A stretch of DNA of 52,000 bases from Acidobacteriota bacterium (GTDB lineage: Bacteria; Acidobacteriota; Vicinamibacteria; Vicinamibacterales; 2-12-FULL-66-21): positions 82,414-134,413 of the forward strand of contig QHWR01000074.1 in the NCBI GenBank assembly GCA_003223835.1, written 5' to 3'. The translations under genes and the position numbers were made by a program. Below are positions 3,060 to 18,315 of the stretch, piece after piece. The notes under the pieces are model-generated. The model saw only the letters and a list, made by a program, of their open reading frames with translations, ran no database searches and was not told where the DNA came from. Every line of letters begins with the position of its first letter. Positions within the stretch are counted from its first letter, which is position 1.

Positions 3060-3896
3060 ATGCACGCCGTGCGCACGGTCGTCATCCGTCCCGCGTCATC
3101 CTCCTGGCTGCACCTCGGTGAACACCTCGGGCGCCTTCGAGAGTACGGCGACCTGCTCTACACGCTGAGCGTCCACCGCGTCAACGTGCGTTATAAGCAA
3201 ACGGCGCTCGGCGTCCTCTGGGCGGTGCTGCAGCCGCTCCTGATGATGGTGATTTTCACGGCGGTGTTCTCGGTGCTGGCGCGCATGCCGAGCGACGGCC
3301 GTCCGTAAGCGCTCTTCGCGTACGCGGCGCTGCTGCCATGGACGTTCTTTGCGACATCGCTCAGCAACGGCACGAACTCGCTCGTCGCGCACACGCAACT
3401 CATTACGAAGGTCTACTTCCCGCGAGAGATCCTTCCGCTCACATACATCGTCGCCGGTCTCTTCGATTTCGCGATCGGGTTCGTCGTCCTGCTCGGGCTG
3501 CTGGCGTGGTACCACGTCGGGCTCACCGCGCAGGCCTGGAACCTCATTCCGATCGTCGCGCTCCTCGCGGCGTGGACGCTCGCCGTCGCCTTGTTCCTCG
3601 CGGCGCTCCAGGTGCGTTTCCGCGACGTCGGCGTCGCGCTGCCCGCGCTCGTCCAGCTGTGGATGTTCGCGTCTCCCGTGATCTATCCGCTCGGCGTCGT
3701 TCCGGCAGGCTGGCGAACGTGGTACCTGCTCAACCCGATGGCGGGCATCGTCGCGTCGTGCCGCAGCGTGCTGCTTCAGGGCCAGGCGCCGGAGGCATTG
3801 CCGCTGCGGATGGCGGTCATCGTGACGGTCGTTGCGTTGCCGCTCTCGTATCTGTTTTTCAAGCGCGCGGAAGCCACCATGGCGGACGTGATCTAG
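3060..3896 (+). pseudogene. ABC-2 type polysaccharide export permease, interrupted by in-frame TAA at 3306-3308
   Basis: [85 protein letters not shown]...MADVI: one continuous frame on both sides of the TAA. Confidence 0.85.
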
Positions 3897-3906
3897 GCCC
3901 GGCCGC

Positions 3907-5115
3907 ATGCGACCCCTGATCGACATTCGATTCGACGCCGTCTCGAAGCGATACCGGGTCCGCCAGCCGATCGGGCGCGACGGCGGAGGCCGTTACCGCG
4001 ATTTCTGGGCGGTGCGGGACGTCAGCTTCGACGTCGCCCGCGGCGAAACGCTCGGCATCATCGGCCACAACGGCGCCGGCAAGAGCACACTGCTGAAGCT
4101 GCTCTCCCGGATCACTGCGCCGACGTCGGGGACGATCACGCTGAGCGGGCGCCTGGCCGCGTTGATCGAGGTCGGATCCGGCTTCCACCCGGAGCTGACC
4201 GGCCGCGAGAACATCTTCCTCAGCGGATCCCTCCTCGGCATGAAGCGGCGCGAGATCGCGTCGAAGCTCGACCGCATCGTCGCGTTCGCGGGCGTCGGCC
4301 CGTTCATCGACATGCCGGTCAAGTGGTACTCATCCGGCATGTACATCCGGCTGGGCTTCGCGGTGGCGGCGCATCTCGAGGCGGACATCCTGCTCGTCGA
4401 CGAAGTGCTGGCGGTGGGCGACGCGGCGTTCCAGCTGCAGTGCCACGAGCGCATCGCCGAGCTTCGGCGCGACGGCACGACGATGCTGTTCATCTCGCAC
4501 GACCTGACGTCGATCGCGCGGCTGTGCGACCGGTCCATGCTGATGGACCGCGGGCGGATTGCCTTGACCGGCGTGTCCCGCGACGTGATCGCGGAGTACA
4601 ACCGCATCGTCGCCGACTCGCAGGCGCGCGAGGTCGCCGACGCGGTCGCTGTTGACGCGAGGTCGCTGGCGCGCGTCGTCGACGTGCGGTTCCTCGATGA
4701 CGACGGACGCGAGTCGGTCGTGGTCCGCACGGGCGAGCCGCTGCGCGCCCTGGTTGATGTCGACGTGACGCTGCCGGTACGCGACGCGGTGATCGAGGTC
4801 TTCTATTACTCGCGCGATGGGCGCACGCTGCACTGCCAGCACAGCACCGCGCTCAGCGGACCGCGGCTCGATTTGATGGCCGGCCGCCGCCGGATCGAGT
4901 TCCTCTGCGACGAGATCGGCCTGCAGCCGGGGATCTACGCGATCGGCGCGTCGGTGCGCGAGCGAACGGGATCCACCGCGCTCGACTGGTGGTACGGCGT
5001 GCGGCTCCTCAACGTGGAACAGGGAAAACCGGTGCGCGGGTACTTCTACGCGCCGCACGAGTGGAGGTGCGCTGATGCCGGCGCCGCGGCTCAGTGTCGT
5101 GCTGCCGACGCATAA
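3907..5115 (+). CDS. Polysaccharide ABC transporter ATP-binding protein with Wzt-like C-terminal domain
   Basis: GIIGHNGAGKSTLLKLLSRITAPTSG...YSSGMYIRLGFAVAAHLEADILLVDEVLAVGD: Walker A/B and signature of the KpsT/TagH/Wzt group. Confidence 0.92.
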   Translation: MRPLIDIRFDAVSKRYRVRQPIGRDGGGRYRDFWAVRDVSFDVARGETLGIIGHNGAGKSTLLKLLSRITAPTSGTITLSGRLAALIEVGSGFHPELTGRENIFLSGSLLGMKRREIASKLDRIVAFAGVGPFIDMPVKWYSSGMYIRLGFAVAAHLEADILLVDEVLAVGDAAFQLQCHERIAELRRDGTTMLFISHDLTSIARLCDRSMLMDRGRIALTGVSRDVIAEYNRIVADSQAREVADAVAVDARSLARVVDVRFLDDDGRESVVVRTGEPLRALVDVDVTLPVRDAVIEVFYYSRDGRTLHCQHSTALSGPRLDLMAGRRRIEFLCDEIGLQPGIYAIGASVRERTGSTALDWWYGVRLLNVEQGKPVRGYFYAPHEWRCADAGAAAQCRAADA

Positions 5116-6004
5116 TCGCGCCGGCGAGCTGCGTCACGCGATCGAGGCGCTGCTGCGACAGACGCCGTCTGCCGGCGCGTACGAGGTCATCGTCGTCGCG
5201 AACAATTGCACGGACGGCACCACCGATCTGCTCGCCTCGATCGACGACGCGCGGCTGAAAGGCATCCCCGAAAACCGTCAGGGCCTTTCTTACGCGCGCA
5301 ACACGGGGATCGCGGCGAGCGCGGGCGATTACGTGGCCTTCACGGACGACGACGTCGAGGTGGCGCCTGACTGGGTCGCGACGCTGCTGCACGCGTTCGA
5401 GGCGCACCCTGACGTCGACGGCGTCGGCGGCCGCGTGCTGCCGTCCTGGCGCGACGCCTGCCCGGGATGGCTGACGCGCGCACATTGGGCGCCGCTCGCG
5501 CTGCAGGACCACGGCGACACGCGTCGCGTCTTTGACGCCGCGACCCCGATCGGGCTCATCGGCGCGAACGTCGCGTTCCGCCGCGGCGTCTTCGCGCGGG
5601 TGGGCACATTCGCGGCGGCCGTGCAGCGCGTCCGCGATGGGATCGGGTCGACTGAAGACCACGAGTTCCTGCTGCGGCTGTACGCCGCGGGCGGCCGCAT
5701 GCTGTACCTGCCGAAGCTGGTCGCGCGCGCCCGCGTACAGCCGGATCGCTGCGTCCGCACGTACCACCGGCGATGGCATTTCGGTCACGGACGGTTCCAC
5801 GCGCTCATGCGGGACCCGCGAATCGAGCGCTCGCGCACGTACATCTTCGGGGTGCCGGGCCATCTGCTGCACGCGGCCGCGCGCGACGCGGCGCATTGGT
5901 TCGTGTCGCTCCTCCGCCGCGACGACGCGGAAGTGTTTGCGACCGAGCTGCGCCTGCGTTTCGTCGCCGGCTTCGTGCGTCAGCGTTTGAGAGGCGCCCG
6001 GTGA
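5075..6004 (+). CDS. Glycosyltransferase family 2
   Basis: MPAPRLSVVLPTHNRAGELRHAIEALLRQ...GDYVAFTDDDVEVAPDWV; overlaps the upstream ATPase by 41 nt. Confidence 0.88.
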   Translation: MPAPRLSVVLPTHNRAGELRHAIEALLRQTPSAGAYEVIVVANNCTDGTTDLLASIDDARLKGIPENRQGLSYARNTGIAASAGDYVAFTDDDVEVAPDWVATLLHAFEAHPDVDGVGGRVLPSWRDACPGWLTRAHWAPLALQDHGDTRRVFDAATPIGLIGANVAFRRGVFARVGTFAAAVQRVRDGIGSTEDHEFLLRLYAAGGRMLYLPKLVARARVQPDRCVRTYHRRWHFGHGRFHALMRDPRIERSRTYIFGVPGHLLHAAARDAAHWFVSLLRRDDAEVFATELRLRFVAGFVRQRLRGAR

Positions 6005-6909
6005 CGGTCTCCGTCGTCATTCCGTGCTTCAACCAGGCGCATTATCTGGGCGAGGCGCTCGCGAGCGTCGACGCGCAGCGCGAGCGCGCCGACGTCATCG
6101 TCGTCGACGACGGATCGACGGACGATACGGCCGGCGTCGCATCGAGGTCCGGTGGCGTTCGGTGTTTGCGCCAACGCAATCAGGGACCGGCCGTCGCGAG
6201 AAATGCCGGCCTCGCCGCGGCGCGAGGCGAGTACGTGGTCTTCCTCGACGCCGACGACCGTCTCCTGCCGGATGCGGTTGACGTTGGAGTGGACGCGTTC
6301 GACCGCCATCCGGAGTGCGGGCTCGTCTTCGGCCGCGCGGTGATGATGGGGCCGGACGGCGCGCTGTGGCCCACGCCCGACCAGCCACGCGTCGAGCGCG
6401 ATCACCACCTCGCGTTGCTCCGCCGCAATCTGATCTGGGCCCCCGCCATGGCGATGTTCCGGCGCAGCGCCGTCGTCGCCGCCGGCGGGTTCGCGACGGG
6501 TGTCGACGCCGCAGCGGATTATGACCTTTACCTCCGCGTCTCGCGCGGGACGCCGGTGTTCGATCACGGCCGGCTCGTCGCGTGTTATCGGCGCCATTCG
6601 CACAACATGAGCGCGAACGCGGTCCGCATGCTGCGCGAGACGCTCACCGTCATGCAGCGTCATCGCCGTTTCGCCGCCGCCGATCCAGCGACGCTCGCGG
6701 CCTGGCGCGAAGGCCGGCGAACCTGGCAGGAATTCTACGGAACGGCTCTCGTCGAGGAGATTCGCGGTCACGTCCGACGCGGTGAATGGAACCGAGCGCT
6801 CGTGAAAGCGTTCGTCCTCGCGCGCCATCACCCCCGACGCATCCCGCGCGAACTCACACGCCGCATCGGCAACATGCGGCGCTACGGCGTGGTTCGCCGA
6901 TCTTCGTAG
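6001..6909 (+). CDS. Glycosyltransferase family 2
   Basis: GTG start: VTVSVVIPCFNQAHYLGEALASVDAQRERADVIVVDDGSTDDT...; 4-nt overlap with the upstream gene. Confidence 0.88.
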   Translation: MTVSVVIPCFNQAHYLGEALASVDAQRERADVIVVDDGSTDDTAGVASRSGGVRCLRQRNQGPAVARNAGLAAARGEYVVFLDADDRLLPDAVDVGVDAFDRHPECGLVFGRAVMMGPDGALWPTPDQPRVERDHHLALLRRNLIWAPAMAMFRRSAVVAAGGFATGVDAAADYDLYLRVSRGTPVFDHGRLVACYRRHSHNMSANAVRMLRETLTVMQRHRRFAAADPATLAAWREGRRTWQEFYGTALVEEIRGHVRRGEWNRALVKAFVLARHHPRRIPRELTRRIGNMRRYGVVRRSS

Positions 6910-6910
6910 C

Positions 6911-6928
6911 GCAGGGCTTCAGCCCTGC
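6911..6928. terminator. GC-rich hairpin (gcagggc-ttca-gccctgc) between convergent genes
   Basis: Perfect 7-bp stem, TTCA loop, between convergent stops at 6909 and 6953; resembles the dispersed hairpins listed below. Confidence 0.55.
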
Positions 6929-6952
6929 TCGTGGGGCGCTCTGGCGGGTCGG

Positions 6953-7765
6953 TTACGCCGGTCTGGCAATTCCGGCCGCCGAAATCTCTTCCGCGAGTTG
7001 GCGTGCTTCGAGTTCGTCGGGCAGCCGATGGTGCAGCGCGGGGGCGACGGTGGCGCAGACGACCGTCTCCGCGAACGCTTCCGTCGCGCGGAAGTCCACG
7101 CGGAATCCAGCGGTCTTCAGGAGCGACGTCAGGCAGCTCGGCGTCAGTCCCCAGAACCAGTTTCCATATCCATCCGCCGGCTCGAACTCGCTGCTGATCC
7201 CCGCCTGGTGCAACAGCCCCAGGCTCCGCAGATTCCACAGGCGGCGCGCGCGCTCGTCGAGCATCGGAAAGTACACCGCCGCATTGGGCAGACCGTCGAT
7301 CTCCGGAATCGTGGAGGTGCGGAGAATCAACGTCTCGCGACAGATCCGGCGCAGCGCGACGAGCAGATCGAACGGGCTCGGATGGTGATACAGCACACCC
7401 GCGCAAAAGACGACGTCACTCTGTCCAATCTGCGCGAGCGTGTCCGCGCGCGTGATGTCGCCGAGCACGAACCGGACGCTCGAGCCTCTCGATCGGCGCT
7501 TGTCCTCGAACTCCGGCGTCGGCCCGAAGACGTCGACGCCCGTCACCGACGTCGCGCCCGCGGCCTCGGCGATGAACGAGTACTCCCCGTTGATCCCCCA
7601 CATGCAGCCGATGTCGGCGAATGAATGACCCGGCGCGTGGGCCCGGATGTATTCCGGCAGCCGCTCGTAACTGCCGACGACGTCACCGCGACGGCCGCGC
7701 CAGCGGCGCCAGAGGCCGTTCAGGAGCGGGCGCTTAAGCGAGAGGACTTTGTATCGATACAGCAT
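6953..7765 (-). CDS. Class I SAM-dependent methyltransferase
   Basis: MLYRYKVLSLKRPLL...FADIGCMWGINGEYSFIAEAAGATSVTGVDVFGPTPEFED...DVVFCAGVLYHHPSP. Confidence 0.8.
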   Translation of the reverse strand: MLYRYKVLSLKRPLLNGLWRRWRGRRGDVVGSYERLPEYIRAHAPGHSFADIGCMWGINGEYSFIAEAAGATSVTGVDVFGPTPEFEDKRRSRGSSVRFVLGDITRADTLAQIGQSDVVFCAGVLYHHPSPFDLLVALRRICRETLILRTSTIPEIDGLPNAAVYFPMLDERARRLWNLRSLGLLHQAGISSEFEPADGYGNWFWGLTPSCLTSLLKTAGFRVDFRATEAFAETVVCATVAPALHHRLPDELEARQLAEEISAAGIARPA

Positions 7766-16335: not shown

Positions 16336-16773
16336 CTATTTTCCTCTGTCGACCGGATTCCCCTCGCTCAGCCACTTGTTGAATCCGCCGAGCAGCGCGT
16401 GCGCGTCGACGCCGGCCTTCTGGAGCGTGAGCGCCGCCCGGGCGCTCGTATGCTCCTGCGGTCAACTGCAGTAGGTGACGATCCGCTTCTTCAACCGCTT
16501 CAGCTCGTCGAGATGATCCGCGACGGCGGACGCGGGGATGACGCGCGCGCCGGGAATGTGTCCAGCCTCGAACGATGCCGCGTCGCGCGTGTCGATGACG
16601 ACCACTCCGTGCGTGTCGTACAGCTTCTTGAACTCGTCGTAGTCGATCCGCAGCGCCGGCGAGTTCATGTCGTCCTGGACGACCGGGTCCGGCGTCGGCA
16701 GGGGGGGCACCTGTGGCGGCGCCTGCAGAGCCACGGCATGCACGAGCGCGATGAGCATCAGCATGCCCGCCAT
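16336..16773 (-). CDS. Exported rhodanese-like protein with candidate selenocysteine (UGA codon 104, 16462-16464)
   Basis: MAGMLMLIALVHAVALQ...VVVIDTRDAASFEAGHIPGARVIPASAVADHLDELKRLKKRIVTYCS[UGA]PQEHTSARAALTLQKAGVDAHALLGGFNKWLSEGNPVDRGK*. The rhodanese fold continues in frame past the UGA to a TAG at 16336-16338. Confidence 0.8.
16422..16456 (-). promoter_or_regulatory. Candidate bacterial SECIS (bSECIS) hairpin
   Basis: RNA 5'-GGAGC-AUAC-GAGCGCC-CGGGC-GGCGCUC-AC-GCUCC-3': 12 bp with an internal loop and 5-nt apical loop. It starts 5 nt after the UGA, and the apical loop is 22-26 nt downstream. Confidence 0.6.
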
Positions 16774-16797
16774 TGTACCGCGGAGTAGACTCTCGCC

Positions 16798-18315
16798 GTG
16801 CCGCTCGACCGCTATCTCTCGGATGCCGCGCACTTTCCGGGCGGTCACACCGCCGGCGTCATCGTCCCCCGCTCCGTGGACGAGATTCCAGCCATCGTCC
16901 GATCCGCCCCCGCGCTGCTGATCGTCGGCGCGCAGTCGTCGCTCACCGGCGGCGCCACGCCGATGGGAGAACTCGTGCTCTCCACCGAAAAGCTGACGCG
17001 CATCGTGGACATCTCGCCGACGCTCGTCCGCGTCGAGGCCGGCGTGACGGTCGCGGCGCTGCAGGAGCATCTTGCCTCGCGCGGCGCGTGGTTTCCACCC
17101 ACGCCGACGTTCACCGGCGCCTTCGCCGGGGGAATCGTGGCGACGAACGCGGCGGGCGCGGCGACGTTCAAGTACGGCGCGGTCCGCTCGTGGGTCGAGG
17201 CTTTGACCGTGGTTCTCGCCGACGGCTCGTCGCTCGCGATTCAGCGTGGCGAGCAGCGTGCGAGTGGCCGCCGTCTGCGCCTCGGCGCCGTCGACGTGCC
17301 GGTCCCCATGTATCGGATGCCGGATGTCGTGAAACGGTCGGCCGGCTACCACGCCGAGCCCGAGATGGATCCGATCGATCTGTTCATCGGCTCCGAAGGG
17401 ACGCTCGGCGCGATCACGACGGTGACGTTCCGCGTCCTGACGCCGGCGCCGACGACGGCGCTGGCGCTCGTGCCGTGCACGTCGGAGCCGCGCGCGCTCG
17501 CGCTTGTCGCGGCGCTGCGCGACGCGTCGATCGCCACGTGGCGGACGAGCGATCCCGACGGCGTGAACGTCGCCGCGATCGAGCACATGGATCGGCGGTG
17601 CCTCGAGATCCTGAAAGAGGACGGCGTCGATCGGAAGTACGACGTGACGCTGCCGTCCGGCGACGGTCTGGCGCTGCTGGTGCAGCTCGAGCTGACACCG
17701 GGCACCACGGAGGCGCAGGCGTTCGATCAGATCGCGTCGGCACAGGCGCGCGACGCGCGGGGCGGACTCGCGGCGTTCTGCCGCGTGCTCGAGCAGCACG
17801 GCGGGTTCGACGAGACCGAAATCGCGCTGCCGGGGAATGTCCGTCGCGCGGAACAGTTCGTCGCCGTCCGCGAAGCGGTCCCCGCCGGTGTGAATCGACG
17901 AGTGGGCGACGCCCAGCGCGACGTGGATGCCCGCATCGCGAAGACCGCGGCCGACATGATCGTCCCGTTCGATCGGTTTGCCGAGATGATGGAGATCTAT
18001 CGCGCCGGCTTCGTCGCGCGCGGACTCGACTTCGCCGTCTGGGGACACGTCTCCGACGGCAACGTGCACCCGAACGTGCTGCCGCGGTCGTACGCGGACG
18101 TCGAGCGTGGGAAGGAAGCGATCCTGGCGTTCGGCCGCGAGGTGACGCGGCTGGGCGGCTGTCCGCTCGCCGAGCACGGCGTGGGACGCCATCCCGTCAA
18201 GCAGGCGTTACTGCGCGGGCTTTACGGCGACGCCGGGATCGATCAGATGCGCGCCGTCAAGCGCGCGCTCGATCCGGCGTGGAAACTCGCACCAGGCGTC
18301 ATTTTCCCGGCGTGA
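16798..18315 (+). CDS. FAD-binding oxidoreductase (GlcD/lactate dehydrogenase-like, FAD_binding_4)
   Basis: FPGGHTAGVIVPRSVDEIPAIVRSAPALLIVGAQSSLTGGATPMGELVLSTEKL...GSEGTLGAITTVTFRVL...AEHGVGRHPVKQALLRGLYG. Confidence 0.88.
   Translation: MPLDRYLSDAAHFPGGHTAGVIVPRSVDEIPAIVRSAPALLIVGAQSSLTGGATPMGELVLSTEKLTRIVDISPTLVRVEAGVTVAALQEHLASRGAWFPPTPTFTGAFAGGIVATNAAGAATFKYGAVRSWVEALTVVLADGSSLAIQRGEQRASGRRLRLGAVDVPVPMYRMPDVVKRSAGYHAEPEMDPIDLFIGSEGTLGAITTVTFRVLTPAPTTALALVPCTSEPRALALVAALRDASIATWRTSDPDGVNVAAIEHMDRRCLEILKEDGVDRKYDVTLPSGDGLALLVQLELTPGTTEAQAFDQIASAQARDARGGLAAFCRVLEQHGGFDETEIALPGNVRRAEQFVAVREAVPAGVNRRVGDAQRDVDARIAKTAADMIVPFDRFAEMMEIYRAGFVARGLDFAVWGHVSDGNVHPNVLPRSYADVERGKEAILAFGREVTRLGGCPLAEHGVGRHPVKQALLRGLYGDAGIDQMRAVKRALDPAWKLAPGVIFPA

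Follow-up and report, generated by a model that had tools for sequence, protein, structure and literature searches.

The stretch of DNA analysed here (the window: 52,000 nucleotides of a contig from an Acidobacteriota bacterium) carries on its minus strand a rhodanese gene which, as judged from sequence comparison, almost certainly encodes a bacterial selenoprotein whose in-frame UGA at codon 104 is read as selenocysteine (Sec). We take UGA104 for a Sec codon and not for a stop because dozens of relatives keep either UGA or a Cys codon at this position, because a matching hairpin follows it, and because the genome holds the full Sec machinery.

The gene and its predicted product

Read from the ATG at 16773 on the minus strand, the frame runs MAGMLMLIALVHAVALQ...VTYCS-UGA-PQEHTSARAALTLQ...GGFNKWLSEGNPVDRGK-TAG. 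The UGA is the only one in the frame between 16773 and 16336, and the 41 sense codons 3' of it complete the rhodanese domain. Start codon, UGA at codon 104, the 41 downstream codons and the TAG all match exactly what the initial annotation had given. The features referred to below are as follows.

16336..16773, minus strand: gene of the predicted selenoprotein, a putatively exported rhodanese of 145 aa with Sec at residue 104; ATG at 16773, TAG at 16338-16336
16464-16462, minus strand: UGA, predicted Sec codon (codon and residue 104); aligned with UGA or a Cys codon in homologues
16468..16470, minus strand: Cys102, the rhodanese catalytic Cys position; invariant in the family and placed by alignment with BH2092/3nhv
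16429..16447, minus strand: SECIS-like apical stem-loop GAGCGCC(CGGGC)GGCGCUC, with its loop at nt 22-26 after the UGA; conserved and covarying
16422..16456, minus strand: full hairpin including the 5-bp lower stem GGAGC/GCUCC; minimum free energy (MFE) structure
16723..16773, minus strand: hydrophobic N terminus, putative signal peptide MAGMLMLIALVHAVALQ; read from the sequence and from the signal or lipoprotein peptides of homologues

The Pfam rhodanese domain (PF00581) covers residues 46-136 of the read-through protein and thus spans the UGA, with 64.1 bits against a cut-off of 22.2. An AlphaFold model of the same protein, with Cys in place of Sec, has a mean pLDDT of 91.7, and its structure matches are solved rhodaneses in the PDB (best 3nhv, E 2.6e-9). 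UGA is the leakiest stop codon, and one might therefore suppose that codon 104 is a regulated stop which yields a truncated product, or that a near-cognate Trp or Cys tRNA reads it without selenium. We consider either very improbable; in the case of a regulated stop, the AlphaFold model argues against it, as an end at residue 104 would cost the fold its last helices and strand. Clear signal or lipoprotein peptides stand at the N terminus of several homologues, whereas that of the window protein lacks a basic n-region, so that export is less clear for this copy than for its relatives.

The neighbours of the gene in the window are a creatininase-family gene and, on the other strand, a gene for an FAD-linked oxidase (16798-18315, plus strand); neither points to an enzymatic role or a substrate for the rhodanese. 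The oxidase gene starts divergently from the rhodanese start, with 24 nt between the two (16773-16798). Either a promoter overlaps coding sequence here or one of the two starts, that of the rhodanese or that of the oxidase, must be misplaced. TGA is the normal stop of several neighbouring genes, which eliminates a reassigned genetic code.

Conservation of the UGA codon among relatives

In a sample of 396 genomes of the same phylum, 83 contain matches to the rhodanese, many of them with exactly one TGA. When 71 distinct copies were realigned, the codon aligned to residue 104 was TGA in 54, TGC in 10, TGT in six and GGC (Gly) in one; the alignment of UGA with Cys that the initial annotation had proposed to look for is thus present, and Cys stands in 16 of the 17 homologues without UGA. 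This preference for Cys is not what a regulated stop or selenium-free readthrough would lead one to expect.

The UGA copies come from many genera, and a UGA-containing paralogue is found in the window's own genome as well. Downstream of the UGA there is none of the random decay that would mark a remnant: amino acid identity after and before the UGA is 0.57 and 0.53, respectively, with the closest relative and 0.54 and 0.41 with the own-genome paralogue, and conservation was higher after the UGA than before it in all four comparisons made. The coding sequence 3' of UGA104 is constrained at least as well as that 5' of it. In a pseudogene the UGA would be a true stop that arose by mutation or sequencing error and the remainder a remnant, and if a single draft assembly had a lone stop of this sort, it would look no different from what is seen here. 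Yet the 54 aligned UGA copies from many genera, the own-genome UGA paralogue, the constraint on the downstream codons and the way in which the UGA tracks selB (see below) leave this explanation with next to no probability, and we regard it as refuted by the conservation of the UGA in relatives.

In two cases, L023/L057 (genome G075) and L062 (genome G157), a genome has two UGA rhodanese genes in tandem.

A conserved hairpin follows the UGA

In a bacterial SECIS element a stem-loop lies right after the UGA; its apical loop stands some 16-37 nt from this codon, and one of the first bases of the loop is a G. The window hairpin, with its loop CGGGC at nt 22-26 past the UGA, fits this geometry. When the 45 nt past the UGA are folded, the MFE structure is the one described in the initial annotation; its energy is -21.9 kcal/mol, with a z of -3.0 relative to dinucleotide shuffles. 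Among 3000 recodings of the same 15 codons, which kept the peptide and followed the codon usage of the window, 1.3% fold as stably and 2.0% hold all seven stem pairs. By the dinucleotide and the synonymous nulls together, neither GC content nor the conserved peptide accounts for the hairpin. A scan of the region against Rfam returned no matching family.

The 45 nt that follow the UGA were aligned for 50 distinct UGA copies, and no gap was needed in any of them. Columns 16-21 and 27-32 are paired in 87% of the cells, as compared to 22-53% when the partner is slid. The pair 18-30 is C-G in 34 and U-A in nine of the 50 sequences; both columns are third codon positions, and this double-sided change is synonymous and goes beyond any coding demand. 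The UGA copies hold 5.17 of the six core pairs against 3.66 +/- 0.13 in the synonymous null, and the Cys copies 4.13 against 3.32 +/- 0.23. By the folding energy of the whole 45 nt, Sec and Cys copies can be told apart only poorly (mean z -0.86 and 0.07, respectively), some UGA copies having weak overall folds, and the position-specific stem is the better test. A conserved and covarying stem, the further evidence which the initial annotation had proposed to seek in homologues, is therefore in place. Of the two-part stem that it described, however, the 7-bp apical part is a feature of the family, whereas the 5-bp lower part (GGAGC/GCUCC) is particular to the window copy and not conserved in relatives.

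Selenocysteine machinery and co-occurrence with selB

All four components whose absence would have spoken against Sec insertion are present in the window's own assembly (93% complete): selA (542 bits), selB (332 bits, over the curated cut-off), selD (363 bits) and tRNA-Sec (61 bits, anticodon UCA). The SelD of this genome itself carries an in-frame UGA, in CAG-U-ASKL. The Sec site of SelD is listed as UxxK (PMC13188914), and the match gives an internal control, since by it this genome encodes at least one canonical selenoprotein.

Across the sample, selB is present in each of the 51 genomes with a UGA-bearing match but in 258 of the 396 genomes overall (Fisher p 5e-11, with kinship ignored). 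Conversely, two Cys copies (L075 in genome G227 and L082 in G388) are nested within Sec clades of the tree; neither has a qualifying hairpin, and a search for selB and tRNA-Sec in the two genomes found neither gene. Both the exclusive co-occurrence of UGA copies with selB and the loss of the hairpin where selB and tRNA-Sec are lost argue against a regulated stop or readthrough without selenium. Matches to tRNA-Sec of 49-51 bits in three genomes (G241, G281 and G321) were left out of the tRNA-Sec count, as they are at the level of the own-genome tRNA-Ser (51 bits). Genome G317 has a good tRNA-Sec and no selB was found in it, perhaps because the assembly is incomplete. Taken together, the UGA conserved in 54 copies, the machinery and the conserved hairpin uphold the original preference for Sec insertion over a pseudogene.

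In genome G383 (L101:about 4800-7391) selB is followed, some 0.2 kb further downstream and on its own strand, by the UGA rhodanese gene, and in a same-genus genome (G025, contig C23) the two are about 3 kb apart.

Relation to known rhodanese selenoproteins

Sec-containing rhodanese-related sulfurtransferases have been reported from 2005 on (PMC1088965), and a 2026 review lists a rhodanese-like domain-containing protein form 3 with a CxU motif (NF041203, TKB26178.1; PMC13188914). The description of the window gene as a new selenoprotein was thus too strong, since the catalogue of selenoproteins already includes CxU rhodaneses. NF041203 (rhodanese_LYCAU, 'rhodanese-related (seleno)protein') is also the best NCBIfam match of the window protein, with which it shares the rhodanese domain, the CxU motif and the alignment column of Sec; L071, which alone among the sampled copies passes the cut-off of this model, has FCTUPNE aligned at residue 104. 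The window protein, however, reaches 66.1 bits against a cut-off of 115, and over-cut-off matches to this model occur in only one of the 396 genomes. In the tree, which was built on few columns and whose inner forks are often unresolved, a branch with 99/92 support has on one side most stand-alone copies, together with the window gene and its paralogue from the same genome, and on the other L071 and the DedA fusions described below; several members of the window gene's clade carry signal or lipoprotein peptides. By these comparisons the window protein is a divergent relative that falls outside NF041203 in its present definition, and belongs to a separate clade whose members are predicted to be largely exported.

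The other listed rhodanese selenoproteins, forms 1, 2 and 4 (UxxS, UxxG) and TsoB (NF045694, UxxxxU) (PMC13188914), likewise combine a rhodanese domain with Sec but differ from the window protein in their Sec motifs. TsoB is a two-Sec rhodanese/DsbD fusion, and the window protein matches its model weakly (24 bits against a cut-off of 805). The Cys rhodaneses PspE, GlpE and BH2092 (3nhv) have the fold and the catalytic Cys position in common with the window protein but lack Sec. Finally, the loop of the other own-genome rhodaneses follows CxxGxRS (YCRIGERS and YCAGGYRS), whereas that of the window protein is longer and reads CxUPxExTSA. The gene is accordingly filed as a bacterial selenoprotein and a rhodanese, of a kind already known but of a branch that current annotation models miss.

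A proposed Cys/Sec pair in the rhodanese loop

But where does the Sec residue stand with respect to the active site? Cys102 aligns without gaps with the catalytic Cys position of YCWGPAC in BH2092/3nhv, so that Sec104 is an added residue at +2, forming a C-x-U pair. In an alignment of 44 sequences residue 102 is invariantly Cys and residue 104 invariantly Cys or Sec. The earlier proposal that the UGA replaces a Cys in a redox loop therefore holds in so far as 16 homologues have Cys at codon 104; the sulfur-carrying rhodanese Cys, however, is not replaced but kept as Cys102, and Sec is a second residue.

This arrangement suggests that Cys and Sec of C102-S-U104 work as a pair in redox or sulfane-sulfur chemistry. 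The hairpin, which starts just after the UGA, would recruit SelB with Sec-tRNA-Sec, and UGA104 would then be decoded as Sec. In the folded loop Y-C102-S-U104-P-x-E, Cys102 would accept sulfur as the rhodanese cysteine, and Sec104 would be the partner that resolves it or takes part in its redox change. We envisage a cycle between the reduced thiol/selenol and a selenenylsulfide (or a Cys persulfide), by which the pair would reduce or transfer sulfane sulfur, or an oxidised substrate similar to it, outside the cytoplasm. Given that the protein is a selenoprotein, we lean towards such chemistry outside the cytoplasm, with some reserve. The rhodanese fold and the retained canonical Cys would also suit an ordinary sulfurtransferase whose Sec104 has a structural or protective role, for instance against overoxidation, and forms no redox pair with Cys102. 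This bears on the mechanism only and not on the selenoprotein assignment, and we think it rather unlikely, as residue 104 is invariantly Cys or Sec and as CxU/CxC spacing is typical of redox pairs.

Fusion proteins and the own-genome paralogue

The paralogue in the window's own genome (contig C144, L104:4583-5728, minus strand) joins a methyltransferase to a rhodanese domain and has its UGA in the same loop, YCS-U-PAE. Next to it on the same contig, in the same orientation (L104:about 3720-4558, minus strand), lies a gene for an ArsM-like methyltransferase with an in-frame UGA of its own (WTG-U-IAGA), which scores 220 bits against a cut-off of 263 in the arsenite methyltransferase model and is likely a second selenoprotein of this genome. 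That the two genes adjoin suggests an arsenic or metalloid context for the paralogue.

In many genera of the phylum the rhodanese domain is fused to a DedA/VTT-type membrane protein, with UGA in [YF]CT-U-PxE (L107-L118, L123, L125 and L126; PF09335 + PF00581, assigned by domain search for L107 and by eye for the others). Two further loci (L120 and L121) encode a cation/proton antiporter with a C-terminal rhodanese domain and UGA in YC[ST]-U-xxE (Na/H exchanger, PF00999, by domain search for L120 and by eye for L121). A literature search, which covered few subscription papers, found none on DedA-rhodanese proteins with selenocysteine and none relevant by title on the DedA family together with selenoproteins. 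We tentatively propose, as a possibility that falls somewhat short of an even chance, that the exported branch including the window gene and the DedA/VTT, cation/proton antiporter and methyltransferase fusions make up a large superfamily of CxU Sec-rhodaneses, mostly below current model cut-offs, and with it an undescribed selenium-dependent envelope system of redox or sulfane-sulfur chemistry in this phylum.

Implications

Standard gene calling ends such genes at the UGA, so that throughout the phylum members of the exported branch probably stand in annotations as broken rhodaneses. To recognise the branch is to add to the selenoproteome of a bacterial group that is widespread. The Sec and Cys copies, found with and without selB, are clean natural experiments, and they make it testable why a rhodanese keeps its catalytic Cys and yet adds a Sec two residues on.
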